A model generated the notes under the pieces. It saw nothing but the letters and a program-made list of their open reading frames with translations, had not been told where the DNA came from and made no database searches. Both the position numbers and the translations under genes were made by a program. From contig NZ_CP045644.1 in the NCBI RefSeq assembly GCF_009498455.1, forward strand, positions 4,591,001 to 4,655,000: a DNA stretch of 64,000 nt, given 5' to 3'. This document shows positions 21,675 to 54,733 of this stretch, in pieces. The stretch is from Variovorax paradoxus (GTDB lineage Bacteria > Pseudomonadota > Gammaproteobacteria > Burkholderiales > Burkholderiaceae_C). Positions within the stretch are counted from its first letter, which is position 1. Each line of letters starts with the position of its first letter.

Positions 21675-21682
21675 ATGGATGC

Positions 21683-21705
21683 GTACCCGGGCAAAATCCG
21701 GGTAC
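21683..21705. promoter_or_regulatory. 23-bp perfect inverted repeat (8-7-8) touching the IclR start codon
   Basis: Arms GTACCCGG and CCGGGTAC with a 7-bp AT-richer centre end directly before the ATG at 21706 and begin 8 bp after the stop of the MDR gene. It could be an autoregulatory operator, or in RNA a hairpin covering the ribosome site. No T-tract follows, so a simple terminator is less likely. Confidence 0.45.
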
Positions 21706-23837: not shown

Positions 23838-24401
23838 CTAGCGAGGCGGATCTTGGTCGTCGGCGACCTTCGCGAGCAGTGATAGCAACAGCGTCCGTTC
23901 GCGTGCCGACAGGCACGCCGCTATCTTCTTTTCGAAGGATTGACTTGCAGCCTGATAGAGGTCGAGGTCCGCGTTCCCTCGATCCGTCAGGTGGAGCGCA
24001 TAAGCACGGCGGTCCTCGGTGGCGTTCCGCGACACGAGGCCCATGCGTTCAAGTTCGTCCACCACCTTGACGGTGCCAGGTCCCTTGATGCCGAGCAGTC
24101 CGCCTAGCGCCGCTTGGCTGATGCCGGGGTTGGCGCCGATGGCACAGAGCGCAGCGAAGCGAGCTGGCGAGAGATTGCCGCCGAGGTGAAGAACGAGAGC
24201 TTCGTCGCAGCGCACCTGGGCGCGCTTTATCGCATAGGCGAGGGAGCCGCTCAGGAGATCCCCGCGCTTGGCGGATCTCGTCGCCGGCGGCACGCCATCC
24301 CTGCCTCGCGCAGCGCCTGTCGCGCTGGCCGGGTTGGCGTCCTTTGTGCGGACGGGAGCGGGACGGGTGGACGTTCGGGTCACAGGCAGCCGATAGGACA
24401 T
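23838..24401 (-). CDS. MarR-family transcriptional regulator
   Basis: Regulator of 187 residues. A low-complexity, Ala/Arg-rich N-terminal tail (about 45 residues) precedes the winged helix-turn-helix: NLSPARFAALCAIGANPGIS, GGLLGIKGPGTVKVVDELE as recognition region, and the wing RNATEDRRAYALHLTDRG. C-terminal helices form the dimer interface. It is divergent from the ABC importer block, whose promoter carries an operator-like element (24457-24481) that recurs at 31506-31530 in front of the reductase gene. I infer that this protein controls both promoters and possibly its own. The true start could be one of several downstream codons, since the N-terminal tail is poorly conserved-looking. Confidence 0.87.
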   Translation of the reverse strand: MSYRLPVTRTSTRPAPVRTKDANPASATGAARGRDGVPPATRSAKRGDLLSGSLAYAIKRAQVRCDEALVLHLGGNLSPARFAALCAIGANPGISQAALGGLLGIKGPGTVKVVDELERMGLVSRNATEDRRAYALHLTDRGNADLDLYQAASQSFEKKIAACLSARERTLLLSLLAKVADDQDPPR

Positions 24402-24420
24402 GAAGATCGTTCAATTGTAG

Positions 24421-24449
24421 TTGACGGTGAACAGTGCTCTGGGTACATT
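24421..24449 (+). promoter_or_regulatory. Sigma-70-type promoter of the ABC importer/Rieske block
   Basis: TTGACG (24421-24426) and TACATT (24444-24449) with an ideal 17-bp spacer. The predicted start of transcription falls inside the adjacent operator-like element, leaving a leader of about 175 nt before the receptor gene. A matching promoter is at 31468-31497. Confidence 0.65.
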
Positions 24450-24456
24450 GATTCCA

Positions 24457-24481
24457 GGCAAATGATTTGCTAGGCGAACTA
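24457..24481. promoter_or_regulatory. Operator-like element A, candidate MarR binding site
   Basis: The element reads GGCAAAT, G, ATTTGC, then TAGGCGAACTA. It contains a perfect 13-bp palindrome (GCAAAT-G-ATTTGC) overlapping an imperfect one (TTTGC-TAG-GCGAA). 23 of its 25 positions recur at 31506-31530. It sits over the expected +1 of the promoter at 24421, 56 bp from the start of the divergent MarR gene: the classic position for repression. Confidence 0.65.
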
Positions 24482-24631
24482 TAAATAGCCGGGTCGGCCG
24501 CGCAGTGGCTTCGATAGCGCTGACGGCTCACAGCAGCAAGAGTCATGTCCGGATACCGAAATGGAACCCCGACTCGAGTCCGCTGAATGCCGAGAATCGG
24601 CTGGCCCTTGAAGTCGACAGAAGGAGACAAC

Positions 24632-25798
24632 GTGAAAAAAATCCATTCAGTGCTCGTCGCCGCCGCTTGCGGCCTTTGGATCGGCGCCGCGCACGCGGAC
24701 ATCAAGGTGGGATTTACGGCGCCGCTCTCGGGGCCGGCGGGCGCCATCGGCCAGGACCAATACGACGGCTTCATGCTTGCGATCGAGCGACTGCAGGGCA
24801 GGCTGGGTGGCCAGTCGGCAGCGGTGCTCAAGGAGGACGACCAACTCAAGCCGGAAGTGGGTCTGCAGGCCGCTCGCAAGTTGATCGAAAAGGAAAAAGT
24901 CGACGTCCTCGTGGGCCTGGGCTACACCAACGTCTTCATGGCCATGGCGCCGCTCGTCACACAGTCCGGGGTCGTGGCCATCGGAACCAACGCAGGCCCG
25001 CAGGCCGTTGCCGGGGCGGGATGCAAGGCGAACATCTTCGCCATGACCGGTCAGAACGACGGTCCGTCCGAGGCGATGGGCATGTACGCCCAGCAGAAGC
25101 GTTATGACAGGACCTTTCTGCTCGCGCCCAACTACCAGGCGGGCAAGGAGATGCTGGCGGGCTTCAAGCGGCACTACAAGGGAAGCGTCGCTGACGAGGT
25201 CTACCCGCCGTTGAATCAGTCCGACTTTTCCGCGGAGATCGCGCAGATCCAGGCAGCCCGTCCCGATGCGCTGTTCATCTTCTTGCCCGGAGGCATGGGC
25301 ATCAACTTCATCAAGCAAATGAAGCAGGCCGGCCTGCTGGGCCGCGTGCCCGTGATGTCGGTTTTCACCGTTGACGGAACCACGCTCCCGGCCTTGAAAC
25401 AGCAGGCTGAAGGCGTGCTCGCCGGCGCGATGTGGGATGCGGCCTCGGACGGCAAGGAGGCGGCCGAATTCAAACAGGCTTTCGCCGCGAGATACAAGCG
25501 TATCCCGAGCCTGTACGCGGCCGTGGGTTACGACGCCGGCAATCTGCTGAACGTGGCGATCGCGAGACTCAACGGAAACGTGTCGGACAAGGTGGCCTTC
25601 GCTGCCGCCGTCAAGGCGGCCGGCTCGGAATTCAGGTCGGTGCGCGGCGCCTTCCGCTTCAACACCAACAACATGCCGGTGCAGGACTACCATGTCTACC
25701 AGGTGGTGAAAGCCGGCACGGACGTCACGATGGCGCAGGTGGCGACGCCCGTCAAGGCGCATCCGGATTCCTATCACGCGCAGTGTTCCCTGAAGTGA
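24632..25798 (+). CDS. ABC transporter substrate-binding protein, LivJ/LivK type
   Basis: Receptor of 388 residues starting at GTG behind an excellent ribosome site (AAGGAGACAAC). A signal peptide (about 1-22, ending AHA) is followed by DIKVGFTAPLSGPAGAIG, the usual Peripla_BP_6 opening. It is the first gene of a complete importer (receptor, two permeases, two ATPases) that continues into a Rieske oxygenase gene, so its ligand is probably the oxygenase substrate or a precursor. A longer reading from 24587 lacks a ribosome site and disrupts the signal peptide. Confidence 0.92.
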   Translation: MKKIHSVLVAAACGLWIGAAHADIKVGFTAPLSGPAGAIGQDQYDGFMLAIERLQGRLGGQSAAVLKEDDQLKPEVGLQAARKLIEKEKVDVLVGLGYTNVFMAMAPLVTQSGVVAIGTNAGPQAVAGAGCKANIFAMTGQNDGPSEAMGMYAQQKRYDRTFLLAPNYQAGKEMLAGFKRHYKGSVADEVYPPLNQSDFSAEIAQIQAARPDALFIFLPGGMGINFIKQMKQAGLLGRVPVMSVFTVDGTTLPALKQQAEGVLAGAMWDAASDGKEAAEFKQAFAARYKRIPSLYAAVGYDAGNLLNVAIARLNGNVSDKVAFAAAVKAAGSEFRSVRGAFRFNTNNMPVQDYHVYQVVKAGTDVTMAQVATPVKAHPDSYHAQCSLK

Positions 25799-25805
25799 TG
25801 GGTCC

Positions 25806-26732
25806 ATGAGCCTCACGCTGTTCATTGCCCAGTTGCTGAACGGACTTCAGTTCGGCGTTCTGTTGTTCCTGCTGGCCGCCGGGCTGACGCTGGTGTTCGG
25901 CATCATGAGTTTCATCAATCTCGCCCATGGCTCCCTCTACATGGTCGGGGCGTATGCCGCCGCAGTGGCGGGTGCGAAGACCGGCTCCTTTGCCGTGGCG
26001 GTGGCGGCGGCGCTCATAGCGGGCGTTGCGGTTGGTGCGCTGCTAGAGAGGCTCGCGGCGTCCCGGCTGTACCGCCGGGATCATCTGGACCATGTCCTGG
26101 CCACGTTCGGACTGGTGATGTTCTTCAATGAACTTGCCCGCATGATCTGGGGCCCCCAGCCGATCTTCATCTCGTTGCCGGAAAGTCTGTCGGGAACCGT
26201 GGCGCTTCTGGGATTTTCCTATCCGTCCTATCGCTTCCTGATCATCGCAACCGGGTTGGCGGTGGCCATGGCAAGCCAGTGGCTGATCCGCCGCACGAGA
26301 TGGGGCATGCTCATCCGCGCCGGCTCGTCGAATCCCGACATGGTCTCGACACTGGGCGTGAACATCGGGCTGCTCAATGCAGGCCTGTTCACGCTCGGCG
26401 CGGCGCTTGCAGCGTTGGCAGGCGCCATGGCCGCGCCGATCCTTTCGGTGCAAAGCGGGATGGGCGATGGCGTATTGATCACGACGCTGGTCGTCATCGT
26501 GATCGGCGGGATCGGCTCCGTTGCCGGTGCGTTCTGCGCGAGCCTGCTCGTCGGCGTGGTGGACACCATGGGACGCAGCTACCTGACCCTGCTGTTGCGC
26601 GAGGTGGCCGATCGCGACGTCGCCAATGCGGCAGGACCCGCGCTGGCATCGATGTTGGTCTACCTGCTGATGGCCATCGTGCTTGCATGGCGCCCGCAAG
26701 GGCTGTTTCCCGCCACGGGGAGGCCGTCGTGA
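25806..26732 (+). CDS. Branched-chain-type ABC transporter permease (LivH-like)
   Basis: Inner-membrane protein of 308 residues with about eight hydrophobic segments. Family signatures are LTLVFGIMSFINLAHGSLYM near the N-terminus and VIVIGGIGSVAGAFCASLLVG in the second half. It is 7 bp after the receptor gene and overlaps LivM by GTGA. Confidence 0.93.
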   Translation: MSLTLFIAQLLNGLQFGVLLFLLAAGLTLVFGIMSFINLAHGSLYMVGAYAAAVAGAKTGSFAVAVAAALIAGVAVGALLERLAASRLYRRDHLDHVLATFGLVMFFNELARMIWGPQPIFISLPESLSGTVALLGFSYPSYRFLIIATGLAVAMASQWLIRRTRWGMLIRAGSSNPDMVSTLGVNIGLLNAGLFTLGAALAALAGAMAAPILSVQSGMGDGVLITTLVVIVIGGIGSVAGAFCASLLVGVVDTMGRSYLTLLLREVADRDVANAAGPALASMLVYLLMAIVLAWRPQGLFPATGRPS

Positions 26733-27736
26733 CCGGGCGTGGAACGCTTCCGCTTCGCGCCGGTGCGCTGGTGGCGCTGGCGGCGATCCCCCTTGCGGCC
26801 ATGGCGATGGGCGAGAGCTTCTACCTGGCCTTCGGCGCGCGTGTGCTGATCTACGCCATCGCTGCGGTCGGGCTGAACATCGCGCTGGGCTTCGGCGGCA
26901 TGGTGAGCCTGGGACATGCCCTGTTTCTCGGACTGGGGATGTACAGCGTGGCGCTGCCCGCACATTTCGGCATCGACAGCGGCTGGATTCACCTGGCCTT
27001 GACTGTCGCGTCCTGTGCACTGGCGGGAACGCTTACCGGCTGGATCAGCCTGCGCACGGCCGGCATCGCGTTCATCATGATCACGCTGGCCTTTGCCCAG
27101 ATGGGCTTCTTCGTGCTCGTGAGCCTCAAGCAGTTCGGGGGCGACGATGGACTGGCCGTTGCGGCGCCGAGCAACTTCGGTCGGTTCGGATTGGATTCCC
27201 CGCTTGCGGTCTACATCGCGGCCTTCGCAATGCTGCTGGGATTGTTGATCTGGACCGACCGTCTTCGCCAATCGTCCTTCGGCATGGCGCTGCGCGCCTG
27301 CCGCCAGAGCGGGCGGCGCGCCGCCTCGCTGGGCATCATGCCTCGCAGGTGTCTGCTGGCAGCCTACGTCTTGTCAGCGGTCATCTGCGGCATTGCCGGC
27401 TTGCTGTTGGCGAACTTGAACGCTTACGTCTCGCCAAGCACGATGTCGTGGTTCGTCTCCGGTGAGCTCATCGTGATGGTGGTGCTCGGCGGCATCGGGT
27501 CCGCCTTCGGGCCGGCGGTGGGCGCCCTGGTCTATCTGGGAGCGGAAGAGGTGCTGAAGTCCATGACGGGCCACTGGATGGCCGTGTTCGGCCTTCTCAT
27601 ATTCGCCATGGCATTGGTAGGCAGGCCCGCAGCCGCCAGACTCGCGGTCGATTGGAGCCGGCGCCCGCGTGCGGTCGGCGCGAACCGCCGTGTTTTGAGC
27701 GGCACGACCGGCACCGCCGGCACGGAGCGCAAGTAA
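26729..27736 (+). CDS. Branched-chain-type ABC transporter permease (LivM-like)
   Basis: Inner-membrane protein of 335 residues. Signatures are IYAIAAVGLNIALGFGGMVS, SLGHALFLGLGMYS and the loop VVLGGIGSAFGPAVGA. The start is a GTG at 26729 that overlaps the LivH stop; the longer frame from 26279 lies within LivH. A basic, low-complexity C-terminal tail (from about residue 310) follows the last membrane segment. Its stop shares bases with the next start (TAATG). Confidence 0.92.
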   Translation: MTGRGTLPLRAGALVALAAIPLAAMAMGESFYLAFGARVLIYAIAAVGLNIALGFGGMVSLGHALFLGLGMYSVALPAHFGIDSGWIHLALTVASCALAGTLTGWISLRTAGIAFIMITLAFAQMGFFVLVSLKQFGGDDGLAVAAPSNFGRFGLDSPLAVYIAAFAMLLGLLIWTDRLRQSSFGMALRACRQSGRRAASLGIMPRRCLLAAYVLSAVICGIAGLLLANLNAYVSPSTMSWFVSGELIVMVVLGGIGSAFGPAVGALVYLGAEEVLKSMTGHWMAVFGLLIFAMALVGRPAAARLAVDWSRRPRAVGANRRVLSGTTGTAGTERK

Positions 27737-28491
27737 TGCCGTTGCTCCAGGTCCGGTCCCTGACGAAGCGCTACGGCTCGCTGCTGGTGACCGATGAGGT
27801 TGTCCTGGACGTCGAGCCGGGTGAACTTCACGCGCTCATCGGGCCCAACGGCGCCGGCAAGACGACGTTGGTCAATCAGATCTCCGGCGAACTGCCTTCG
27901 GATACCGGGACGATCCATTTCGACGGACGGGACGTGACTTCGCAGGCGATCGCGACGCGCGCACAGGTCGGATTGGTGCGTTCCTACCAGATTAGCTCGG
28001 TATTCGACGAGTTCACCGTGCTCGAGAATGCGGCCCTCGCTGCCCGGGCTGCGCACGCCGGGGTGTTCGGCTTCTGGCGGCAGCTTCTCGAGGACCGCGG
28101 CGCGACGCGGTCCGCACAGCGCAGCATCGCGGCAGTGGGTCTGTCGGGACGCGAGCATGTGACCGCACAAGCGCTGGGCTACGGCGAGCGTCGCCAACTT
28201 GAACTGGCGATGGCACTCGCGGCCGAGCCGAAGTTCCTGTTGCTCGACGAGCCGATGGCCGGCATGAGCGTTCAGGAATCGAGCGAAGTCGTCGCGCTGC
28301 TTCGCCGGCTCAAGCGTGACTACACCATCTTGCTCGTGGAGCACGACATGGCGGCGGTGTTCGCGCTCGCGGACCGCATCAGTGTGCTGGTCCATGGGCG
28401 GATTCTCATGACTGGGACGCCAGCGGAGATTCGCCGAAACGAGCAGGTGCGGGCGACCTACCTGGGTGATGAGGAGCTGCAGCCATCGTGA
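27736..28491 (+). CDS. Branched-chain-type ABC transporter ATP-binding protein (LivG-like)
   Basis: ATPase of 251 residues. Walker A GPNGAGKT is at residues 36-43, the signature loop is LGYGERRQLE (the LivG-type LSYG variant) and Walker B is FLLLDEPMAGM, with the switch His in LVEHDM. This subunit has an intact nucleotide site, unlike its partner LivF. Start 27736 overlaps the LivM stop by TAATG. Confidence 0.93.
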   Translation: MPLLQVRSLTKRYGSLLVTDEVVLDVEPGELHALIGPNGAGKTTLVNQISGELPSDTGTIHFDGRDVTSQAIATRAQVGLVRSYQISSVFDEFTVLENAALAARAAHAGVFGFWRQLLEDRGATRSAQRSIAAVGLSGREHVTAQALGYGERRQLELAMALAAEPKFLLLDEPMAGMSVQESSEVVALLRRLKRDYTILLVEHDMAAVFALADRISVLVHGRILMTGTPAEIRRNEQVRATYLGDEELQPS

Positions 28492-29201
28492 CCTGCTTAC
28501 TCGAAGTTTCTGGATTGACCGCCGGGTACGGCGCTGCACAGGTCCTGTTCGGCGTGGACTTCCACCTGCGCGAAGGACAGGTGATCACGCTGCTTGGCCG
28601 CAACGGCATGGGCCGTTCGACGACGATCAAGTGCCTCTTCGGTCTGGTGCGCGCGCGAAATGGCAGCATCCATTTTTGCGGTGAGCGGCTGCATGCGCTG
28701 CCGACCCACCGCATCGGCCGTGCAGGACTGGCATTGGTGCCGGAGGGGCGCCAGATATTTCCCAGCCTCACCGTGGAAGAAAACCTGGTGGCCACGGCAA
28801 GACCGAAGCGTGGCGATGCCCGGTCGATGTGGACCCTGGCACGGGTCTACGACTTCTTCCCTCGGTTGAGCGAGCGTCGGCGGAACCTCGGCACGCAGTT
28901 GTCCGGCGGCGAACAGCAGATGCTGGCCATCGGGCGGGCATTGATGACCAATCCGCGACTGCTGGTCCTGGACGAAGCGACCGAAGGGCTTGCACCCCTG
29001 ATCCGCGCCGAGATCTGGTCGGCGCTGCAGGTGCTCAAGGCCGAGGGCCTGTCCATGGTGGTCGTGGACAAGAACTTGAATCCGCTGCTTGGCCTGGCGG
29101 ACCGCCATTTTGTGCTGGAGAAAGGGCGCGTCGTCTGGTCGGGCGATTCGAACGAACTCCGGTCCGACCCCCGCGTCGTTCACGAGTACCTCGGCGTCTG
29201 A
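28488..29201 (+). CDS. Branched-chain-type ABC transporter ATP-binding protein (LivF-like) with Walker A Lys to Arg
   Basis: ATPase of 237 residues, GTG start overlapping the LivG stop (GTGA). The Walker A motif reads GRNGMGRS, with Arg43 (codon CGT at 28614-28616) where the invariant Lys is expected; the rest is normal: signature LSGGEQQ, Walker B LLVLDEATEGL (Ala for the usual Pro/Ser), D-loop and switch region VVVDKNL in place of the usual His. With both Lys and switch His changed, this half of the ATPase may bind but poorly hydrolyse ATP, giving an asymmetric importer. Reading frame and neighbours are otherwise intact, so this is not a pseudogene. Confidence 0.9.
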   Translation: MTCLLEVSGLTAGYGAAQVLFGVDFHLREGQVITLLGRNGMGRSTTIKCLFGLVRARNGSIHFCGERLHALPTHRIGRAGLALVPEGRQIFPSLTVEENLVATARPKRGDARSMWTLARVYDFFPRLSERRRNLGTQLSGGEQQMLAIGRALMTNPRLLVLDEATEGLAPLIRAEIWSALQVLKAEGLSMVVVDKNLNPLLGLADRHFVLEKGRVVWSGDSNELRSDPRVVHEYLGV

Positions 29202-29254
29202 GCCGCGTCGGTCGATTCGAACGTTCGTGCTTTCATTTCACGTAGGAGACTCTC

Positions 29255-30334
29255 ATGACTTTCATTCGCAATGACTGGTACGTCGCTGCTTGGCCGAACG
29301 AGGTGACCGAGAAGCCGCTGGCGCGGCGTCTGGGGAACCAGCCGGTGGTCCTGTATCGCGATCGCAGCGGGCGCGCCGTAGCCCTGCATGACCGATGCCC
29401 GCATCGCGGCGCGCCGCTGTCGTTGGGCGAGGTGACCGACAGCGGCCTGCAATGCAACTATCACGGACTCACGTTTGGCGCCGACGGCACATGCGTGATC
29501 ATTCCCGGCCAAGACCGGATCTCGGCAAAGAACTGCATCAAATCCTATCCGCTCGTTGAAAAGCAGGGCTTCATCTGGATCTGGCTTGGTGATCCGGCCA
29601 AGGCGGACGCCTCGACGATCGTGGACTATCCGTACCACGACGATGCGAAGACATGGCCACGCAAGTGCGGAATGATGCATGTCAAGGGGCACTACATGTT
29701 GATGGTCGACAACCTGATGGACCTGACGCACATCGGCTACATGCACAAGAACACCATCGGAAGCGGCCCCGCCGATGAGTATGTGAAGGCGATCATGAAG
29801 CCGGAGCGCACGCCGCGCGGAGCGAAGTTCTCGCGCTGGCTCCTGGATCACACGCCTCCGGCGACCTATGTCGCGGCCGGCGGATTCAAGGGCAAGGTGG
29901 ACCGCTGGCAGGAGTTCGAGCATGTCGCGCCCGGCAACGTGCTGATGTACACAGGTGGCAAGGACGCGGGCACCGGGGCATACGACCGCAACGACCGAGA
30001 GGGCGGCATCCAGTTGCGCATCTTCCATGCGCTGACGCCGGAGACGGACACCTCCTGCTTCTACTTTTTCTCGACGATGACCGGCTACAGACAAGAGGAT
30101 CCCAAGACCTGTGAGCAGTACCACGACGCCATTCTGCGCACCTTCGTCGAGGACGTGGAGTTCATCGAGGGACAGCAGGCGCGCTTGTCCGAGTTCCCGA
30201 GTCCGCAGATTGACACGATCCATGACACGGTCCGCGTCTGGGTGCGCCGGCACCATGAGGCCCGCCTGGCCGAGGAGGCGCGCAACATGGAGAACGCCGC
30301 GGCGTCCGAGGCATCTTCCCTGGCGCGGGCCTGA
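29255..30334 (+). CDS. Rieske non-haem iron oxygenase, VanA-type (aromatic hydroxylase/O-demethylase)
   Basis: Oxygenase subunit of 359 residues, the length of VanA-like three-helix-insert-free enzymes. The Rieske 2Fe-2S cluster ligands are Cys48 and His50 (CPHRG) and Cys67 and His70 (CNYHG). The mononuclear iron site has His159 and His164 in DNLMDLTHIGYMH; a late acidic ligand is expected near FVEDVEFIEGQQ. VanA relatives demethylate methoxybenzoates or hydroxylate aromatics. It lies 53 bp behind LivF with ribosome site GTAGGAGACTCTC. Its electron-donating reductase is probably the product of 31532-32557, which starts from a near-identical promoter. Substrate unknown. Confidence 0.92.
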   Translation: MTFIRNDWYVAAWPNEVTEKPLARRLGNQPVVLYRDRSGRAVALHDRCPHRGAPLSLGEVTDSGLQCNYHGLTFGADGTCVIIPGQDRISAKNCIKSYPLVEKQGFIWIWLGDPAKADASTIVDYPYHDDAKTWPRKCGMMHVKGHYMLMVDNLMDLTHIGYMHKNTIGSGPADEYVKAIMKPERTPRGAKFSRWLLDHTPPATYVAAGGFKGKVDRWQEFEHVAPGNVLMYTGGKDAGTGAYDRNDREGGIQLRIFHALTPETDTSCFYFFSTMTGYRQEDPKTCEQYHDAILRTFVEDVEFIEGQQARLSEFPSPQIDTIHDTVRVWVRRHHEARLAEEARNMENAAASEASSLARA

Positions 30335-30335
30335 C

Positions 30336-31133
30336 ATGCGCACGATCAGCATCAATGGGGTGGAAATCGCGTACGACGTCCACGGCACGGGCGGCCCCTG
30401 GGTCGTCTTTGGGCATTCTCTGGGTTGCACGCGCGCCATGTGGCAGCGGCAGATCGATTCGCTCGCTCGGAATTGCCGCGTGCTGGCCTACGATCTGCGC
30501 GGCCATGGACAGAGCGCCACGGGCGACGCCGCGGCGCAAGGATCGCTCGCGCAACTGGCGTCGGATGTCCGGTCCCTGATGGACCAACTGACGATCGAGC
30601 GCGCGCATTTCGTCGGTATCTCGATTGGCGGCATGATCGGGCAGACCCTCGCCATTGAAAGCCCTGCTCGCATCGCGAGCCTGGTAATGGCCAATACGAC
30701 GGCCTTCATGCCGCCAGCTGCCGTTCAGCTGTGGGCGCAGCGCATCGAGGCGGCGCGAACCCACGGGGTTGCAAGCCTTGCTCGACCGTCGATCGAGCGG
30801 TGGTTTCCTGAAGATTTCCGCGTTGCGCATCCGGCATTGATAGAGCAGATGATCCAGGTGTTTTCGACGACCTCGTTCCGAGGCTACGAGTTCTGCTCCC
30901 GGGCCATCATGGGGTTGGACACGCGCGAAGGCCTGGCGCGGATCCGGTGTCCAGTCCTCATCATCGGAGGCAGCGAGGATCCGGGTGCTCCTGTTGGGGC
31001 GCTTGACCAGATGCAGCAAGCGCTCGCCCAGTCGGAACTTGTCCTGCTGCAAGGAGCGGGACACCTCTCAAACATCGATCGCCCGGAGGAGTTCACCGCG
31101 GCACTGTCGAAATTCCTGCTGCGCTGCACCTGA
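30336..31133 (+). CDS. Alpha/beta hydrolase, 3-oxoadipate enol-lactonase-like
   Basis: Hydrolase of 265 residues. The oxyanion region is VFGHSLG, the nucleophile is Ser96 in GISIGG, Asp is in GGSEDPGAP and His in GAGHLSNIDRP, the PcaD-like pattern. It starts 1 bp after the oxygenase stop, so is cotranslated. It may hydrolyse a lactone or ester linked to the oxygenase product. The frame extending back to 30111 overlaps the oxygenase gene and is rejected. Confidence 0.87.
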   Translation: MRTISINGVEIAYDVHGTGGPWVVFGHSLGCTRAMWQRQIDSLARNCRVLAYDLRGHGQSATGDAAAQGSLAQLASDVRSLMDQLTIERAHFVGISIGGMIGQTLAIESPARIASLVMANTTAFMPPAAVQLWAQRIEAARTHGVASLARPSIERWFPEDFRVAHPALIEQMIQVFSTTSFRGYEFCSRAIMGLDTREGLARIRCPVLIIGGSEDPGAPVGALDQMQQALAQSELVLLQGAGHLSNIDRPEEFTAALSKFLLRCT

Positions 31134-31467
31134 CCCGCGCGCGGCGTCGCGGCGCCCCTGCCGCGGCGGTGGGGTGAAGTGTTCCCGAAGGGCCACGCCT
31201 CGGGCTGAGGGTCTGTACGCGCACCGACAGCGAAGCGATGCGCGACAACCAGCGCGAGCCGCGCCGGCCCGGCCAGGCCAGGCCAGGCCGGGCCAGGATG
31301 CGCGCGGGCCCGACCCCCGCGCTCATGGCGCGCCCCCGCCGTTCAAGGCCCTGTCCGCCGGTGCTTCCCCGCGTCTGCATCGATCGGCTCCCGCGGCTGC
31401 AGCAGGGGGCAGGGGCGGCATAAACACAGATAGGGGTTTGCCCCGGTGCAAAAAATGAACAACGGCG
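31134..31467. other. Gene-free interval between the two MarR-linked blocks
   Basis: No credible gene in 334 bp before the second promoter. There is a GC hairpin close behind the hydrolase stop (CGCGGC 31148-31153 with GCCGCG 31160-31165, no T-tract), which could end the first transcript, and a short tandem repeat at 31271-31297. Base composition is very GC-rich until about 31420 and then becomes AT-richer into the promoter. Confidence 0.5.
31271..31297. repeat. Short tandem repeat, GGCCA unit
   Basis: Five consecutive 5-bp units (four GGCCA, one GGCCG) followed by GG, in non-coding DNA. Too short for a functional claim; possibly slippage-prone. Confidence 0.6.
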
Positions 31468-31497
31468 TTGACAGGGGTGAGCTCACAGATCTACATT
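31468..31497 (+). promoter_or_regulatory. Sigma-70-type promoter of the reductase-headed 11-kb block
   Basis: TTGACA (31468-31473) and TACATT (31492-31497), spacer 18 bp. The -10 region, TACATTGAT, is identical to that at 24444-24452, and the operator-like element follows 5 bp later (4 bp in the first copy). Confidence 0.65.
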
Positions 31498-31505
31498 GAT
31501 CACTT

Positions 31506-31530
31506 GGCAAATCATTCGCTAGGCGAACTA
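31506..31530. promoter_or_regulatory. Operator-like element B, candidate MarR binding site
   Basis: The element reads GGCAAAT, C, ATTCGC, then TAGGCGAACTA, and differs from element A (24457-24481) at two of 25 positions. It contains the perfect palindrome TTCGC-TAG-GCGAA. It ends directly in front of the first ATG (31532) of the reductase gene and covers the expected transcription start. Confidence 0.65.
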
Positions 31531-31531
31531 A

Positions 31532-32557
31532 ATGAAAACGGCGAAGGCACCCACCTCGCCCTCAGTGGATCCCGCGAGCATGTCGACCCCAACCCAAGCC
31601 CAACTTCTTCTGCGCGTCGCCAACAAGACGGCGCAAGCGGAGGGCGTCGTGTCGTTTCGCCTAGTCGACGCCCTCGGGCGGGCCTTGCCAGGCTTCGCTG
31701 CCGGTGCGCACATCGATGTCCAGTTGGGCCCGGATCTGGTGCGGCAGTACTCGTTGTGCAATCCGTCGCGATCGCCCACGGAGTACGAAATCGCGGTTCT
31801 CAGGGAGCCGGCCTCGCGCGGCGGGTCGAAGTACATGCACGAGACATTGGCTGTAGGCATGGAATTCCCGGCAAGTGCACCGAAGAATCATTTCCAGCTT
31901 GACGCACATTCGCCGGCCTTCCTGTTCGCCGGCGGCATCGGCATCACGCCGCTGCTGGCCATGGCGCAGCAGCTGGCCGAGGAAGGCCGGCAGTTCGAGT
32001 TGCACTACTGTGCCCGCAGTCGTCAGCGTGCGGCATTCAGGGAGCGCTTGGCCGAGGCGGCCTATGCCGGGAGTGTTCACTTCCACTACGACGAGGAAGC
32101 GCCCTCGCAGCGGCTCGACATCGCTTCGGTGCTGTCGCGCGGCTCGTCCGCGCATCACCTCTATACCTGCGGGCCCGCCGGCTTCATCCAGCATGTCCTG
32201 GATGCGGGCAGAGGTGCCGGCTGGCCGGAGTCCCGCATGCACCGCGAGTTCTTCGCGGCGCCGGCGGCCGATGCCCGGGCGACAGCGGACGGGGCGTTCG
32301 AAGTGGAGCTCGCGAGCAGCGGCAAACGCTTCGTCGTGCCTGCGGGCACAACGGTGCTTGCCGTACTAACCGACGCCGGCATCGAGGTTCCGGCCTCGTG
32401 CGAGGCCGGTGTGTGCGGCACCTGCGTGACACGGGTGGTCGAGGGGACGCCGGACCACCGCGACGTCTACCTCACCGATGCTGAGCATGCCAAGAACGAC
32501 TGCTTCACGCCCTGCTGCTCGCGGGCGCTGTCGCAGCGGCTTGTGATCGATCTGTAA
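31532..32557 (+). CDS. FNR-type reductase with C-terminal plant-type 2Fe-2S domain (PDR/VanB family)
   Basis: Reductase of 341 residues (325 if started at ATG 31580, which may be the homologous start; no start has a strong ribosome site). The flavin domain has RQYSLCNPS, the NAD domain [12 protein letters not shown] and YTCGPAGF, and the C-terminal ferredoxin domain has CEAGVCGTC plus a further Cys near CFTPCC for the 2Fe-2S cluster. VanB-type reductases pass electrons from NAD(P)H to a Rieske oxygenase. The partner is almost surely the VanA-type oxygenase at 29255, which is in another transcript with the same operator. First gene of a block running to 42816. Confidence 0.92.
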
Positions 32558-32577: not shown

Positions 32578-33465
32578 ATGAGCAAACCCAAAGTCATCGT
32601 CACCGTGGCGCCGACCGGCGGCATGGCGGGCAAGAAGCAGAACCCGAACCTCCCCACGCAGCCCTCTGAAATCGCCGACGACGTCTACCGTTGCTACAAC
32701 GCCGGCGCCAGCGTCGTCGCTGTGCATGCACGGCGTCCGGACGACCAGGCGACCTGCAATCCTGAGATCTACAGCCGGATCAACCGGCTGATCCGCGACA
32801 AGTGCGACATCGTGCTGAACAACTCTACCGGCGGTGGCGTCAGCGGCGACATGCTTCGCAAGCTCGACAACGGACTGTGGGAGCTGGACTGGCAGGAACG
32901 CCTCAAGGGGATGGATGGCGAGGGCGTCGAGATGTGCACGCTGGATGCACAGACAGTGTGCGCCAGCTACGGCGGCATGGAGATCCTTGCGCCGACGACG
33001 CCCAAGCGCACGCGAGAACTGGCCGAGGGCATGAAGGCGCGAGGCATCAAGCCCGAGTGGGAGGTGTTCAGCCTGTCGGACATCGTGCAGGACGTGGGCC
33101 GGGCCATCAGAGAGGGCTTGGACGAACCGCCGTACTTCATCAACATCGTGCTTGGCGTCACTGCCTTCCAGGGTGCGTTGCCGTACACCCCGCGCATCCT
33201 CCAGATGTTGGTGGAGCACCTGCCCAAGGACAGCGTGTTCAACGTCAGCGCAATCGGCAACGCGCAATTGCCGGCCACCACGCAATCCCTGCTGCTCGGC
33301 GGTCATGTGCGCGCCGGGCTCGAGGACAATCTGTACTACGCACAGGGCGAGCTGGCGACCAATGTGCAGCTGATCGAGCGCACGGTGCGCCTCGTGCGCG
33401 AACTCGGCGGCGAGCCCGCAACGCCGGCCGAAGCTCGCGAAATCATGGGCCTGCGGCCGCTGTGA
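32578..33465 (+). CDS. BKACE-family (beta-keto acid cleavage, DUF849) enzyme
   Basis: TIM-barrel protein of 295 residues. BKACE enzymes react a beta-keto acid with acetyl-CoA to give acetoacetate and a new CoA ester, using a Zn ion. STGGG, NVSAIGN and the C-terminal VRAGLEDN (Glu ligand) are typical. The HxH pair of the N-terminal half is AVHAR here: Ala48-Val49-His50, so the first zinc His appears to be missing. It has a good ribosome site (TGGAGACAACACCT) and overlaps the dehydrogenase gene by GTGA. Together the pair could oxidise and then cleave a beta-hydroxy acid, as in carnitine catabolism; the actual substrate is unknown. Confidence 0.88.
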
Positions 33466-34445
33466 CGAACGACATGATCCGTTGCAGTCCCCAGGACGTG
33501 CGTCGTGTCGCGGTGATCGGCACGGGGTCGGTTGGTGCGAGCTGGATCGCGCTCTTTCTGGCCCGCGGCATGCAGGTCATTGCACACGATCCTGCGCCGG
33601 GGGCCGAGGACTTCACGCGCGACTACGTCACGAACGCCTGGCCAGCGCTCCTCGCACTGGGCATTCCCGAGCCCATCGACACACCGCTGGCAGGCCTGCG
33701 CTTTGCCGCATCGGCGGCGCAAGCAGCCCGGGAAGCAGATCTCGTCCAGGAGAACGTACCCGAGAAGCCGGATCTGAAAGCCCGTGTGTTGCAGGAGATC
33801 GGTGAGGCGGCAGGTACAGGGACGGTCATCATTTCCAGTACCGGCGGGATTCCTCCCTCGGTGCTGCAGGAGTCATGCCCTCATCCGGAGCGGCTCGTCG
33901 TTGTTCACCCGTTCAATCCGTCGCACCTGATCCCGCTGGTGGAAGTGGTGGGCGGCAAATTGACCTCGCCATTGGTGGTCGACTGGGCCATGGCGTTCGC
34001 ACGCCACCTCGGCAAGCAGCCGATCCGCGTGAACATGGAAGCCAGCGGGCACATGACAAACCGCCTGCAGATGGCACTGGTGCGCGAAGCGGTGGCCTGC
34101 CTCGTGGACGGAGTCGCCAGTGCGCGTGATATCGATGCGGCGATTCGCTACGGATTGGGTCCCCGCTGGATGCTGATGGGCCCGCTGCTGACCATGCATC
34201 TGGCCGGTGGCCCTGGCGGCATGCAAGGCATTCTCGATCACGCAGGGGCTGCCGTGGAGGAGTGGTGGACACCCCGATCACAGCCCCGGCTGACGCCCGA
34301 AGTGAAGGCGCAACTGGTCGCCGCCGCCGACGAGGTCTCAGGGCGGGCGGCCATCGTCGACTGGATTCGATGGCGCGACGAGAACCTCGTGCGCGTCCTC
34401 CAACTGCAGGAGGCGGGACGGTTCACCGAACCGAAGCCGGCCTGA
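33462..34445 (+). CDS. 3-hydroxyacyl-CoA dehydrogenase / L-carnitine dehydrogenase-like protein
   Basis: Protein of 327 residues. The Rossmann motif is [15 protein letters not shown]; the catalytic region includes IISSTGGI and [19 protein letters not shown] with the catalytic His; [18 protein letters not shown] follows, as in carnitine and 3-hydroxybutyryl-type dehydrogenases. It oxidises a 3-hydroxy acid or its CoA ester with NAD. I choose GTG 33462, which overlaps the BKACE stop as GTGA; ATG 33474 is 12 bp downstream. The tight pairing with a BKACE gene suggests that its 3-keto product is cleaved by that enzyme. Confidence 0.87.
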
Positions 34446-34484
34446 ACTGTTCTGTGCCCATCTGACAAGAATTTTGGAGACATC

Positions 34485-35459
34485 ATGACTCACAGCTTCA
34501 ATCGTCGCCAGTTGCTTCAGTTGAGTAGCGCTATCGCACTGTCGGCTGCCGGCCTGGTGCACGCCCAGGGCACGGCGGGCCGGATCGTGGTGGGATTCCC
34601 GCCGGGCGGAACGCTCGACGTGCTGGCTCGGCTCCTTGCACCGCATTTCTCAAAAGGCGGCATGACCGTCGTCGTGGAGAACAAACCGGGCGCATCGGCC
34701 CAGCTCGGACCGGTAGCCGTCAAGCAGGCACCGCCGGACGGATCGAGCATGCTGCTGACGCCGACGTCGGTGCTGACGCTCACGACGCAGTTGTTTCGCA
34801 AACCGCTAGTCGACCCGTTGCACGATTTGGCGCCGGTCGGGTCCGTGTGCGAACATCCCTTCGCCTTTGCAGTCAGCGGAAGCAGCCCGATCAAAAGCAT
34901 GGATGAGTTCATCGCCTGGGTGAAGGCGCGGGGCAGGGAGGCGAACTTCGCGCATCCGGGCGCGGGCACCTCGCCGCATTTCCTCGGGATGATCCTGGCT
35001 AAGGAAGCGGGGATCAAGCTCACCCATGTGCCCTACCGAGGCACGGCACCTGGTTTGCAGGATCTGATCGGCGGTCAGGTTGATTCGACGATGAACGCGC
35101 TGCCCGCGATGATCGAATACCACAAAGGCGGCCGTTTGCGGATTCTCGCAACCACCGGCTCGCAACGACTGGCTTCCTTGCCCGACGTTCCCACATTCTC
35201 AGAGCTCAAGATTTCCGGTCTCGAATACGCCGAATCATTCGGCATCTTCGTCTCTGCCGCTACGCCCGGCTCCGTCGTTGCTCGTCTAGAGACCGCGCTT
35301 CAGCAGGCGGTGGCCAGTCCCGAGATGGCAGAAGCGGCCAAGCGGATGGAAATGCAGCTGCGCGGCTCGTCCGCAGCGGCCTACAAGCAACTGTTCGAGG
35401 CCGACTACAAGCGCTGGTCCGGCATCGCGAAAGAGTCGGGATTCACCCTCGACGCCTAG
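34485..35459 (+). CDS. Bug/TctC-family periplasmic solute receptor
   Basis: Receptor of 324 residues. The leader (MTHSFNRRQLLQLSSAIAL, ending VHAQ) has an arginine pair but reads as an ordinary or possibly Tat-type signal. Mature features are RIVVGFPPGGTLDVLARLL and HVPYRGTAPGLQDLIGG. The ribosome site is TTGGAGACATC. It is embedded in the catabolic operon, unlike the other Bug receptors in the window, so its ligand may be the operon's substrate, in parallel with the Liv-type importer. No TctA/TctB partner is seen. Confidence 0.9.
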   Translation: MTHSFNRRQLLQLSSAIALSAAGLVHAQGTAGRIVVGFPPGGTLDVLARLLAPHFSKGGMTVVVENKPGASAQLGPVAVKQAPPDGSSMLLTPTSVLTLTTQLFRKPLVDPLHDLAPVGSVCEHPFAFAVSGSSPIKSMDEFIAWVKARGREANFAHPGAGTSPHFLGMILAKEAGIKLTHVPYRGTAPGLQDLIGGQVDSTMNALPAMIEYHKGGRLRILATTGSQRLASLPDVPTFSELKISGLEYAESFGIFVSAATPGSVVARLETALQQAVASPEMAEAAKRMEMQLRGSSAAAYKQLFEADYKRWSGIAKESGFTLDA

Positions 35460-35477
35460 ACCAATCAAAAGAATCGG

Positions 35478-36293
35478 ATGGAATTGCAAATGAAAGAAAA
35501 GACAGATTGGCCGGCGAGCTTGCCGCCTTGCGTTCGCATCGAACGCCGTGGTGGCATTGCCATCGTGACGTTGAACCGGCCTGAGAAGCGGAACTCCCTC
35601 AGCGACGAACTCGTCATCGGCTTACAGACGTTCTTCTCAACGATCCCGCGTGACGTGCAAGCGGTGGTAATGACGGGGGCCGGTGAGCACTTCTGCGCCG
35701 GACTCGATCTCAACGAGATCAAGGAGGCGGGGACCGCAGAGAACTTCGAGACCTGTGCGATCGGCCAGCGCCTGAATGACACAATTCAGTTCTGCAAGGT
35801 CCCCGTAATAGCAGTGCTTCATGGTGCGGTCATTGGAGGAGGGATGGAGCTTGCGGCCGCAGCCCATATCCGCATTGCGGAACCCAGCGCCTACTACGCG
35901 CTGCCGGAAGGCACACGCGGTATCTTCCTCGGATCGGGTGGCTCGGTACGGCTGCCTCGACTTATCGGCGCCTCTCAGGTGGTCGACATGATGCTTTCCG
36001 GCCGCGTATTCGATGCGGTCGAAGGCCGGAACTTCCTGCGCTTCTCGCAATACTTGGTCGAGGCAGGTGACGGTCTGCAGAAAGCGATCGCCGTTGCCGA
36101 GAAGGTCGCCAAGAACGCCCCGCTGGCCAACTATGCCGTGATCCAGGCAATTCCCCGCATCACCGAACAAGAGCCGGCGAATGGGTTGTTTACCGAGATG
36201 CTGATGGTCACCTTGGCGCAGGGCGACGACGAGGCCAAGGGCAGGCTACGCGATTTTCTCGACCGCAAGGCCGGGAGGGTTGTGCCGCAATGA
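35478..36293 (+). CDS. Enoyl-CoA hydratase/isomerase family protein
   Basis: Crotonase of 271 residues. The oxyanion hole segments are HFCAGLDL and GAVIGGGMELAAA; both acidic residues of a true hydratase are present, Glu124 in GGGMELA and Glu144 in ALPEGTRGI. It likely hydrates an enoyl-CoA made by an acyl-CoA dehydrogenase, possibly the one at 40987. It overlaps the ligase gene by ATGA. An internal ATG at 35490 is an alternative start. Confidence 0.9.
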   Translation: MELQMKEKTDWPASLPPCVRIERRGGIAIVTLNRPEKRNSLSDELVIGLQTFFSTIPRDVQAVVMTGAGEHFCAGLDLNEIKEAGTAENFETCAIGQRLNDTIQFCKVPVIAVLHGAVIGGGMELAAAAHIRIAEPSAYYALPEGTRGIFLGSGGSVRLPRLIGASQVVDMMLSGRVFDAVEGRNFLRFSQYLVEAGDGLQKAIAVAEKVAKNAPLANYAVIQAIPRITEQEPANGLFTEMLMVTLAQGDDEAKGRLRDFLDRKAGRVVPQ

Positions 36294-37876
36294 TCGACCA
36301 GGCTGGTGCACACACTTTCGGCGACGTGCTGCGCGCCAACGCGGCCGCTCGGCCCGATAAGGCCGCTTTCGAGATGCTCGATGGCGAGGCGGTGAACTTT
36401 GGGGACCTGAATCGGCGCGTGAACGCGCTGAACAATGCTTTTGCCGAACTGGGGGCTTGCAAGGGCGCGCGCGTCGCGCTACTCGCCAAGAACCGGCTGG
36501 AGTATGTAGAGGTCTATGGACTGAGCAAGTCCGGCCTCATCGTCGTACCGCTCAACTGGCGGCTGGCGCCTGGCGAACTGGTGAATCTGATCAGGCACAG
36601 TGCACCGGAGGTGCTGGTGGTCGACGAGCACCATCGGCTGCTCGCCGAATCAATTCGCAACCAGATTCCGAGTGTCAAGCACTTCGTTCTCATCGGTGGC
36701 ACCGCAGGAGGGTGGCAGGGTTACGAGGATCTGATCCAGCGAGCATCGGATGCAGAACCGGTATCTCAGGCACTGCCCGACGATGTGCTCTGCCTGATCT
36801 ACACCAGCGGCACGACGGGCGCACCCAAGGGCGTTGCCATGACCCACGCCGGCGTGATGGGAAACTGCGCGGCAGCAGCGCAAGAACTCAAGCTCACCGA
36901 CGCCGACATCACGATGGCGGTCATGCCGCTATTCCATGCTGGGGGCATGTGGTACCACCTGTTCCCGAGCTTCGCTTCCGGGACGACGTCGTTGCTGCTG
37001 TCGGACTTCGATCCCGCAACGATTCTTCGCGAACTGCAGGTGCGGCGCATCACCAACGTACACCTCGCACCGACCATGATTGCCGCGCTGCTCTCGAACC
37101 CGTCGGCAGCGTCGGCCGACCTCGGCAGCGTGAGGGTGCTGTTCTATGCAGCGTCGTCGATGCCGCCCGAGTTGCTGCGGCGTGCGATGCAAACCTTCCC
37201 CCGGTGCGGCTTTGTCCAGGGGTATGGATCGACCGAAGCTGGAGTGGTCACCATTCTTCGTGCCGATGCGCATCGGCGTGCGATGGAGCCGGGCGGTGAA
37301 TATCTGCTGGCGTCATGTGGGTTGCCTTACCCGGGTCGACTTGTTCGAGTTGTCGACGATGCTGGCGTCGAGTTGCCGCAAGGAGAAGTGGGGGAGGTGG
37401 AGGTCCACAGTCCCGACTTGATGCAGGGCTACTGGCTCGACGACCAGGCCACAGTACGAGCTCTGCATGGCAAGTGGTTAAAGACCGGGGACCTGGGGCG
37501 CCTCGACCTCCAGGGATTTCTCTATATCGTCGATCGAAAAAACGACATGGTGGTCACCGGTGGCGAGAACGTCTTTCCGACCGAGGTCGAGTCGTACCTC
37601 TACCGCGATCAAGACGTCGAGGAGGCAGCCGTCTTCGGCATTCCGGACCCTGCCTGGGTGGAAAGGGTCGTGGCAGCGGTGGTGCTTCGGCCAGGATCGA
37701 CGGCAACCGGCGAGGAACTGGTCCGGCGGCTGCGCACGCAACTGGCAGGCTACAAGTGCCCGAAGGAGATTTTTGTCGTCAACCATCTGCCAAAGAGTGC
37801 GGTTGGAAAGGTGCTGCGCAAGGAATTGCGTCGGCGTTTCGGTGAAGAACCACAGAAAGAGCGGGGAGCGCAATGA
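36290..37876 (+). CDS. AMP-forming acyl-CoA ligase
   Basis: ANL-superfamily ligase of 528 residues. Motifs are IYTSGTTGAPKGVAMTH (A3 loop), QGYGSTEAGV (A5), KTGDLGRLD (A7), DRKNDMVVTGGENVFPTEVE (A8 hinge) and the C-terminal catalytic Lys in PKSAVGKVLRKELR. It activates a carboxylic acid to CoA ester via an adenylate. It is coupled by ATGA to both neighbours, between the crotonase and the thioesterase, so acts in the same pathway; chain type is not clear (aromatic or medium-chain acid). Confidence 0.92.
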   Translation: MIDQAGAHTFGDVLRANAAARPDKAAFEMLDGEAVNFGDLNRRVNALNNAFAELGACKGARVALLAKNRLEYVEVYGLSKSGLIVVPLNWRLAPGELVNLIRHSAPEVLVVDEHHRLLAESIRNQIPSVKHFVLIGGTAGGWQGYEDLIQRASDAEPVSQALPDDVLCLIYTSGTTGAPKGVAMTHAGVMGNCAAAAQELKLTDADITMAVMPLFHAGGMWYHLFPSFASGTTSLLLSDFDPATILRELQVRRITNVHLAPTMIAALLSNPSAASADLGSVRVLFYAASSMPPELLRRAMQTFPRCGFVQGYGSTEAGVVTILRADAHRRAMEPGGEYLLASCGLPYPGRLVRVVDDAGVELPQGEVGEVEVHSPDLMQGYWLDDQATVRALHGKWLKTGDLGRLDLQGFLYIVDRKNDMVVTGGENVFPTEVESYLYRDQDVEEAAVFGIPDPAWVERVVAAVVLRPGSTATGEELVRRLRTQLAGYKCPKEIFVVNHLPKSAVGKVLRKELRRRFGEEPQKERGAQ

Positions 37877-38301
37877 GCACAATCTGGCAGCAGCCAATTT
37901 CGGTCGAGATACTGACGGCGTTCCATAAGGACACGGCCCCGCTGCATCTGGGCATCGAGTTTCTCGAAGTGGGGAAAGACTTCGTCAAGGGCCGCGTGCC
38001 CGTCGATGCGCGCACACGACAGCCGTACGGACTCCTGCACGGAGGCGTGTCCGTCGTCCTGGCCGAGACCCTGGGCTCGGTGGGCGCGGCCTATGCTTGC
38101 CCATTGGGGTATCACGCGTTCGGACTGGATATCAATGCAAATCACCTTCGCAGTGCGCCTTCCGGCTGGGTGACGGGGGTCGCCGCACCGGTGCATATCG
38201 GACGAAGTACCCAGGTCTGGCAGATCGAATTAACGGACGAGGCGGGGCGGCTCGTTTGCGTTTCCAGGCTGACCATGGCGGTAATGCTGGCAAAGCAATG
38301 A
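37873..38301 (+). CDS. Hotdog-fold thioesterase, PaaI-like
   Basis: Protein of 142 residues with the PaaI_thioesterase pattern: YGLLHGGVSVVLAETLGSVGA holds the HGG motif and the probable catalytic acid, and GLDINANHLRSAPSGWV the second conserved strand. It hydrolyses CoA thioesters, perhaps to release stalled intermediates and free CoA. It overlaps the ligase gene by ATGA. Confidence 0.87.
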   Translation: MSTIWQQPISVEILTAFHKDTAPLHLGIEFLEVGKDFVKGRVPVDARTRQPYGLLHGGVSVVLAETLGSVGAAYACPLGYHAFGLDINANHLRSAPSGWVTGVAAPVHIGRSTQVWQIELTDEAGRLVCVSRLTMAVMLAKQ

Positions 38302-38314
38302 AAGGACCTCGCAG

Positions 38315-39202
38315 ATGAAGCGTTCGTCGTGGTCCGTCATCGGTGCGCTCACTGTCACTGCCTTCATCGCCCTAGGCAGCAAGACCGCGGCGGGGCAAGG
38401 ACTCCCGGCCGCAGTCGGCTCGCCGCGTGTTTACGTGCTGAACTCGGCGGAGTTCGTCGGCTATCCCCGGTCCTTCCTCCAATTCGGCGCACAAGGTGTC
38501 GGCGGCTGGACGCCGGCGGCGTTCTTCCTCATCCGCCATCCGCGGGGCAACGTGCTGGTGGACACGGGCGTCAGCGACCGAGAGATCGACGAACCGGGCT
38601 CGGTCTGGGGAGCCGGGCTTCGGCAGTATTTCGGGTTGAAGAAGACGCCGGACTTGTCCATTGAATCCCAGCTTGCCAAGGCAAGGCTCAAGCCCGAGGA
38701 CATCCACTACGTGGTGCTTACCCATTTGCATCTGGATCACGCCGGCAACCTGTCCAAGTTCCCGACCGCGACTTTCATCATCCAGAACGAGGAGCTGAAG
38801 GCGGCGTGGTGGCCCGACAAGGGCTTTGAAGGCGCCTACTTGCACGAGGACATCAAGGACACGAGGAAGTTCAAGATTCTGCGGCTCGAGGGCAACCTCG
38901 ACCTGTTCGGCGATCGCTCGATCGAAGTCATTCGGGCGCCCGGGCACACACCGGGAACGCAACTCGTCGTCGCGCGCCTGCCCAGGTCCGGCATGGTGGT
39001 TTTCACCGGCGATGCCGTCTACGACCGCGACAACCTGGAGAAAAACGCACTGCCGACGCCGTCAGGGGCCTGGCAAGCGACCGGAATGCTCAACACCTAT
39101 GCGCTGGTTCGCCAATGGCGGGACAGCGGCGCACAAGTGCTTTTCTCGCACGATGGCGACGACTTCAAGACCTACAAGCAGGCCCCGGCGTACTACGACT
39201 AG
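38315..39202 (+). CDS. Exported metallo-beta-lactamase-fold hydrolase, AHL-lactonase-like
   Basis: Protein of 295 residues with a signal peptide (about residues 1-27, ending AAGQG) and the dinuclear-metal motif HLHLDH at 137-142, then APGHTPGTQ and FTGDAVYD for the remaining ligands and a late His in LFSHDGDDF. The overall pattern matches the N-acyl-homoserine-lactonase group of the MBL superfamily, which opens lactones. Being periplasmic and inside a catabolic operon, it may open a lactone substrate or quench a signal; neither can be decided here. The ribosome site is AAGGACC. Confidence 0.85.
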   Translation: MKRSSWSVIGALTVTAFIALGSKTAAGQGLPAAVGSPRVYVLNSAEFVGYPRSFLQFGAQGVGGWTPAAFFLIRHPRGNVLVDTGVSDREIDEPGSVWGAGLRQYFGLKKTPDLSIESQLAKARLKPEDIHYVVLTHLHLDHAGNLSKFPTATFIIQNEELKAAWWPDKGFEGAYLHEDIKDTRKFKILRLEGNLDLFGDRSIEVIRAPGHTPGTQLVVARLPRSGMVVFTGDAVYDRDNLEKNALPTPSGAWQATGMLNTYALVRQWRDSGAQVLFSHDGDDFKTYKQAPAYYD

Positions 39203-39255
39203 CTGCGCAAGCGAGGCGATCGCGAAATTCGACAACCCACAAACAGGAGACAAAG

Positions 39256-40368: not shown

Positions 40369-40390
40369 AGCAGCGAACAAGGAGCCCCCC

Positions 40391-40927: not shown

Positions 40928-40986
40928 CGCAGAACCGAATCGGGCCAAGCCCCTGTCTCACTATCAATCAACTGATTAGCTCTGTC

Positions 40987-51597: not shown

Positions 51598-51607
51598 GCA
51601 GGGTGCC

Positions 51608-52420: not shown

Positions 52421-52440
52421 GGTTGCTCCTTGTGTAGAAA

Positions 52441-53800: not shown

Positions 53801-53813
53801 GTTGCGGGCTCCC

Positions 53814-54497: not shown

Positions 54498-54733
54498 GGG
54501 GTGGATCTCGGGTGAGGCCGCTGCGTGGCGCGGGGCTGGCAGCGGAGAAGAGGAAGGGCAGAGCTCATGGTGCGAGGGGAGGGCGTCCCACCATCCGGAC
54601 AGGTGATGGAAGACGCGTGCCGGGAATGCTAAAGAGCACCCCGGTGTTCGGGACGTTCGGGGTTAACCCGAGTCGCCCGGAATCGTCCCGATGGGTGGGA
54701 CGCAACCCCTTGCGTTGGCGTGCGCAGCAGCGT

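Follow-up and report, generated by a model that had tools for sequence, protein, structure and literature searches.

Two promoters lying 7 kb apart in a 64,000-nucleotide stretch of the Variovorax paradoxus genome (NZ_CP045644.1, positions 4,591,001 to 4,655,000; the whole stretch is called the window here) carry a 25-bp element in nearly identical copies. Sequence comparison indicates that this element is very probably the operator of the adjacent MarR-family regulator, which would repress the gene blocks behind both promoters until a pathway metabolite releases it. Genes for a Rieske oxygenase, in the first block, and its probable electron-supplying partner, in the second, are likely to be switched on together. 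The kind of system is known and ordinary; its members are new, and comparison supports the MarR operator well. A MarR clade so far uncharacterised would thereby gain a concrete operator and a regulon of two blocks in which an oxygenase is joined to its probable reductase.

The same layout, TTGAC(G/A), a spacer of 17 or 18 bp, TACATTGAT and then the 25-bp element, was located at both promoters, as the preliminary description of this DNA had proposed. Promoter 1 (TTGACG-17-TACATT, 24421..24449, plus strand) has its -35 box at 24421-24426 and TACATT, followed by GAT, at 24444-24449. Operator 1 (24457..24481, plus strand), with three half-sites (GCAAA-TGA-TTTGC-TAG-GCGAA) and its core dyad at 24466-24478, comes 4 bp after the -10 box. 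Promoter 2 (TTGACA-18-TACATT, 31468..31497, plus strand) has TTGACA at 31468-31473 and TACATT, again followed by GAT, at 31492-31497, and operator 2 (GCAAA-TCA-TTCGC-TAG-GCGAA, 31506..31530, plus strand), whose core dyad at 31515-31527 is perfect, comes 5 bp after the -10 box. Each promoter was the single sigma-70-like match in the region scanned (24300-24640 and 31050-31620, respectively). If transcription begins 7 nt past the -10 box, the first base of the element falls at +2/+3, and the core dyad TT(T/C)GC-TAG-GCGAA occupies approximately +11 to +24 at both promoters. On this placement the element lies downstream of +1, which it had been described as covering. Both of the overlapping palindromes described earlier are present, but neither is perfect in both copies: GCAAAT-G-ATTTGC is perfect in copy 1 and TTCGC-TAG-GCGAA in copy 2 (copy 1 has TTTGC).

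Between copy 1 and copy 2 the elements are identical at 23 of 25 positions and TACATTGAT at 9 of 9. Outside these boxes, identity was 3/17 in the spacer, 27/100 in the 100 nt after the element, 35/110 from -150 to -40 before it and 30/100 in the 100 nt upstream of the -35 box. Identity is confined to the -35 box, the -10 box and the element, the pattern expected of retained function and not of recent copying.

The element is rare. A search for the 25-mer with up to three mismatches across the complete genome, a single contig of 7,288,087 bases, gave exactly two places, the two window elements (reversed control, 0), and 100 shuffles of the window gave a mean of 0.00 matches. As far as the genome searches reached, the element does not recur at many unrelated promoters. 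A 23-mer version (up to three mismatches) matched four of 150 genomes, namely both copies in V. paradoxus itself and one three-mismatch site apiece in three others. A 17-mer with up to three mismatches was found at 53 places in the genome (33 + 20; reversed controls, 10 + 10), among which the two window elements rank best (0 and 1 mismatch). Follow-up took in 30 of these 53 loci, two overlapping loci having one best match in common. Apart from the two elements, this left 28 loci (27 distinct places), most of them in long GC3-rich frames, and in none did the preceding 70 nt contain TTGAC-N16-19-TAnnnT. The dyad TTNGC-N3-GCNAA occurs at three places in the window, the two operators and 14302, within a 923-residue reading frame.

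Relatives of the regulator carry a related site. The window MarR (187 residues, 23838..24401, minus strand; Pfam MarR_2 2.4e-9 and MarR 1.5e-7, above cutoffs) was compared with 804 candidates, of which 91 were homologues at E ≤ 1e-3. A search of the genome itself found another member of its clade, here called the second MarR, with 60% identity, encoded approximately 6 kb past the window end and approximately 45 kb from the window MarR (G000:C1:4660897-4661328). The DNA facing its own divergent operon has TTGACG-17-TACATT, a 17-nt gap and TTAGCCAGGCTAA, and this dyad is the only TTNGC-N3-GCNAA in the 30 kb past the window end. Its operator, GTTAGCCAGGCTAAC, was found at no other place in the genome with up to two mismatches (reversed control, 1 match). 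A Variovorax boronicumulans plasmid MarR, 50% identical to the window MarR, has TTGACC-17-TACATT, 1 nt and TTAGCTAAGCTAA; here the -10 box, with GTTAGCTAAGCTAAC directly behind it, lies upstream of a gtdA/BKACE/HCDH/AMP ligase operon. In a same-family relative (G205; MarR 49% identical), GTTAGCCAGGCTAAC lies between MarR and a run of Liv-type ABC transporter, AMP ligase and acyl-CoA dehydrogenase genes. In both V. boronicumulans and G205, the stretch separating MarR from the divergent operon contains GTTAGC-N3-GCTAAC. The conserved operator core is TTNGC-N3-GCNAA, with TTAGC as the half-site of the relatives, and TTGAC(G/C), a 17-bp spacer and TACATT are common to promoter 1, the second MarR and V. 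boronicumulans.

At 36 distinct MarR places (E cut 1e-8), the dyad was sought in the 500 nt preceding the point where the tblastn match begins. It was exact at four of the five best by E-value (the window, the second MarR, V. boronicumulans and G205), had one mismatch at the fifth, on a Pseudomonas koreensis plasmid, and was exact at none of the 31 weaker places. Nor was it exact at four further weak relatives or at three on plasmids (three of four new plasmid MarR matches were taken in, PBL-E5 being left out). Six MarR loci (of 30) under the 1e-8 cut also lacked it, only one of which (L032) is well anchored, the others poorly. The site is thus kept with the regulator only in the near clade of the window MarR, a pattern that lends comparative support to the earlier suggestion that the adjacent MarR controls both promoters. 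The matching genomes were the same in a phylum-wide search as in the order search. Two features of MarR proteins beside divergent operons are present here, the winged-helix domain and an inverted repeat at a promoter in the intergenic region between regulator and operon.

Some observations weigh against the element being the operator of this MarR. Relatives with less than 46% identity lack the exact dyad where it could be read, and the P. koreensis MarR outscores that of G205 by E-value, yet has only the one-mismatch dyad. The distance from -10 box to operator is 1 nt in V. boronicumulans versus 16 to 17. Neither G205 nor P. koreensis showed the TTGAC/TACATT pair, and a scan of 24300-24640 for a promoter of the window MarR itself found none.

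If the element is read by MarR, a dimer would bind TTYGC-TAG-GCGAA just past the start of the two sigma-70-type promoters. Bound there, it would block a first block encoding a Liv-type transporter, a VanA-type Rieske oxygenase and a PcaD-like hydrolase, and a second encoding a VanB-type reductase and acyl-CoA catabolic enzymes. A pathway metabolite would release it; the AMP ligase of the second block (36290-37876) points to a CoA thioester as a plausible effector, perhaps an aryl- or acyl-CoA that this enzyme would make. Release would then turn on uptake, oxygenase, reductase and the breakdown of acyl-CoA jointly. We infer binding, repression, the ligand, the operon limits and the partnership of oxygenase and reductase.

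Another regulator may read the element, although this is unlikely. The second MarR is 60% identical and encoded approximately 45 kb away; however, its own operator is of the TTAGC type, with no further genome copy at up to two mismatches. The gene for an IclR-type protein (21679-22509) lies 1.9 kb upstream of copy 1, and this protein could have GCAAAT-N-ATTTGC as its site. Dyads with GC outside and a 1-bp centre resemble IclR-type sites. However, the dyad carried by three MarR relatives has TT outside, not GC, and an IclR-type operator is further weakened by the fact that the intact GC-outside dyad is not in every copy, being broken in copy 2 (GCAAAT-C-ATTCGC).

It is very improbable that MarR bound here activates, or has a dual role, instead of repressing. 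Some MarR proteins are reported to activate (PMC4737184), but the dyads at approximately +11 to +24 lie downstream of near-consensus promoters. A position just downstream of the start is one of occlusion or roadblock. Least probable of all is that the two promoters resemble each other as a leftover of recent duplication and carry no shared operator in use. Box order is the same and spacing nearly so, but with a spacer identical at 3/17 and flanks at 27 to 32%, against 9/9 and 23/25 in the boxes, recent duplication was rejected; furthermore, in the relatives the dyad persists with base changes in each arm. Repression by the adjacent MarR remains the favoured reading.

The overlapping palindromes can be read, from sequence, as neighbouring dyads with a common half-site. 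Half-sites TTNGC and GCNAA alternate every 8 bp, as in GCAAA-TGA-TTTGC-TAG-GCGAA in the window and TTAGC-TAA-GCTAA-CGA-TTAGC in V. boronicumulans. With five loci pooled, the commonest offsets between forward (F) and reverse (R) half-sites were F-to-R 8 (5), F-to-F 16 (5), R-to-F 8 (3), R-to-R 16 (3) and F-to-R 24 (3); out-of-register offsets occurred as well (F-to-R 19 and F-to-R 3, three each; R-to-R 5, two). The observed in-register count was reached by 1/500 shuffles for window copy 1 and by 0/500 for both V. boronicumulans and G205. Shuffles reached it more often at three other loci (second MarR, 3%; L047, 4.4%; P. koreensis, 6%), and the other seven of 13 loci tested had no in-register pair. 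All of these figures overstate the strength because the half-site was defined on the same loci. A second array lies nearer the MarR gene in V. boronicumulans (L050, near 11803) and G205 (L041), which suggests autoregulation there; none was seen near the window MarR.

The recognition helices differ in a way that may be related to the half-sites. In SlyA, Ser62, Val64 and Arg65 are reported to contact bases (PMC4737184); their counterparts in the aligned window MarR are Gly109, Val111 and Lys112. At the first contact position, 61 of 66 clade proteins (P0001-P0066) have Ser, three have Gly (P0001, P0002 and P0009), one has Asn and one was unread. The three with Gly are the nearest MarRs; they are encoded on metagenome contigs and have the recognition helix KGPG. 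The window MarR forms a supported group in the tree with P0002 and P0009 (100/93), and the second MarR groups with P0036 (100/99); as these groups are separate, the pair does not stem from recent duplication. At the window, where MarR is of the Gly type, both sites have TTYGC rather than TTAGC. An operator could be read for three Ser-type relatives, and in each of them the dyad that faces the divergent operon has two TTAGC arms. Two observations speak against a clean switch of specificity: the MarR-side dyad of V. boronicumulans has one GCGAA arm, and the MarR-side array of G205 has TTTGC. It is possible that the window MarR has a private operator specificity, with Gly replacing the base-contacting Ser, but the basis is thin, the window's two sites versus three relatives amounting to one evolutionary contrast.

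More tentatively, two MarR lineages of the same clade, approximately 45 kb apart, might have one promoter design in common but each use a private operator class, TTYGC-TAG-GCGAA for the window MarR and TTAGC-CAG-GCTAA for the second. Cross-talk would then be prevented by the helix change, from Ser/Ala in the second MarR to Gly109/Lys106 in the window clade or the reverse. The operator would be an extendable array of half-sites that alternate every 8 bp, and dimers could occupy it in overlapping registers. This fuller picture is less probable than not, and it is weakened by half-sites of the TTYGC/GCGAA type in the MarR-side arrays of two Ser-type relatives. Related MarR proteins that differ in both half-site and helix residues provide a natural test of how operator specificity changes after a lineage split.

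The second MarR and its catabolic operon (G000:C1:4660897-4671430; L038:6892-17431) lie past the window end. The operon encodes a thioesterase, BKACE, HCDH, acyl-CoA dehydrogenase, enoyl-CoA hydratase, FAD monooxygenase, AMP ligase, Liv receptor and Zn-alcohol dehydrogenase, which suggests side-chain shortening with BKACE replacing thiolase. Its proteins are 58 to 85% identical to those of the V. boronicumulans plasmid operon, which also encodes a gentisate dioxygenase. Compared with the second block of the window, identities are uneven (BKACE and alcohol dehydrogenase 66%, HCDH 47%, AMP ligase 44%, enoyl-CoA hydratase 35%, acyl-CoA dehydrogenase 29%; other second-block proteins had no match at 1e-10), indicating that the two operons are not plain duplicates.

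Among solved structures, the best match of the window MarR and its clade was CouR of Rhodopseudomonas palustris (6c28; 3.6e-20 for the window MarR alone and 2.7e-29 as a profile; next best 1.9e-13). This CouR is described as a MarR repressor of p-coumarate catabolism released by p-coumaroyl-CoA (PMC9594313, PMC5487221). Like the window MarR it sits beside acyl-CoA catabolic genes, although similarity is moderate. CouR of Rhodococcus jostii RHA1 is alike in that a single MarR has multiple operator copies, spread over more than one promoter of the same pathway (PMC4737184). However, its operator, ATTGA-N5-TCAAT, lies over the -35 box, whereas TTNGC-N3-GCNAA in the window lies downstream of the -10 box. 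SlyA, also a MarR protein, is reported to recognise TTAGCAAGCTAA (PMC2156107). The SlyA/RovA half-site TTAGC/GCTAA is that of the window MarR's relatives and the recognition helices align without gaps, but the centre is 2 bp versus 3 bp in all copies here and the window half-site is TTYGC. The SlyA/RovA site proper (TTAGC-N2-GCTAA) was therefore rejected on its centre length.

As in VanA/VanB Rieske O-demethylases and DdmC, the window encodes an oxygenase with Rieske and VanA_C domains and a PDR/VanB-type reductase; it differs in having these in gene blocks with separate promoters, linked by the shared operator. The Variovorax iad (auxin) locus, with MarR_73, likewise combines a MarR repressor, a Rieske oxygenase and a reductase in one catabolic locus. 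It was set aside since its oxygenase is of another type, an alpha-beta IadDE (PMC12633357, PMC9613470), while that of the window is a single VanA_C-type subunit. On an Azospirillum plasmid, a MarR that shares 37.5% identity with the second MarR has as neighbours genes for a ring-hydroxylating oxygenase, a VanB-type reductase and a p-hydroxycinnamoyl-CoA hydratase/lyase; this locus lacks the dyad, and its neighbourhood is in line with aromatic-acid control. Four of six plasmid neighbourhoods of BKACE relatives (from 13 records) were also without the dyad; in the others it lies within cobT (L061) or in no MarR intergenic region (L064). The only relative of the Rieske gene among the genome contigs searched (L040, 50%) had no dyad. 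No description of the operator was found in PMC text, which excludes subscription journals; four operator strings matched only an unrelated yam paper.

All genes of the two blocks are on the plus strand. The first block starts with a Liv-type periplasmic receptor (24632..25798; Peripla_BP_6 1.1e-67), whose frame is open from 24587 and whose start is probably GTG 24632, judging by eye from the Shine-Dalgarno sequence and signal peptide. Four genes for Liv-type ABC permeases and ATPases follow (25806..29201; BPD_transp_2, ABC_tran, BCA_ABC_TP_C), then a Rieske oxygenase of the VanA/DdmC (O-demethylase) type (29255..30334; Rieske 1.4e-21, VanA_C 2.3e-37; dicamba O-demethylase DdmC 7.7e-49). The PcaD-like alpha/beta hydrolase (30315..31133, start approximate) matched TIGR02427 (2.7e-71; 240 bits, below the 256-bit cutoff) and the 3-oxoadipate enol-lactonase 2xua (2e-44). 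Short tandem GGCCAGGCC-like repeats were seen at 31270-31300, between the hydrolase gene and promoter 2.

The second block opens with the PDR/VanB-type ferredoxin reductase (31532..32557, start ATG 31532 or 31580; Fer2, NAD_binding_1). In the 20 listed of its 86 plasmid matches identity was 51 to 55%, most of those listed being annotated as 'PDR/VanB family oxidoreductase'. A VanAB-type set is thus present, and from family and shared operator the oxygenase is presumably served by this reductase. The two had been placed in different transcripts, but a scan of 31050-31620 found no plus-strand terminator, so read-through from the first block into the second is possible. The rest of the second block (32578..42816) has Pfam domains of BKACE, 3-hydroxyacyl-CoA dehydrogenase, TctC receptor, enoyl-CoA hydratase, AMP ligase, 4HBT thioesterase, metallo-beta-lactamase fold, Zn-alcohol dehydrogenase, cupin and acyl-CoA dehydrogenase families. 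TctC-type solute receptors are encoded at 34485-35459, in this block, and at 42872-43882, beside it, with no membrane Tct genes among the genes scanned. Further on, at 51600-56400, three diverged direct-repeat copies of approximately 0.7 kb, approximately 3126 and 848 bp apart, lie over minus-strand reading frames and are perhaps paralogous genes.

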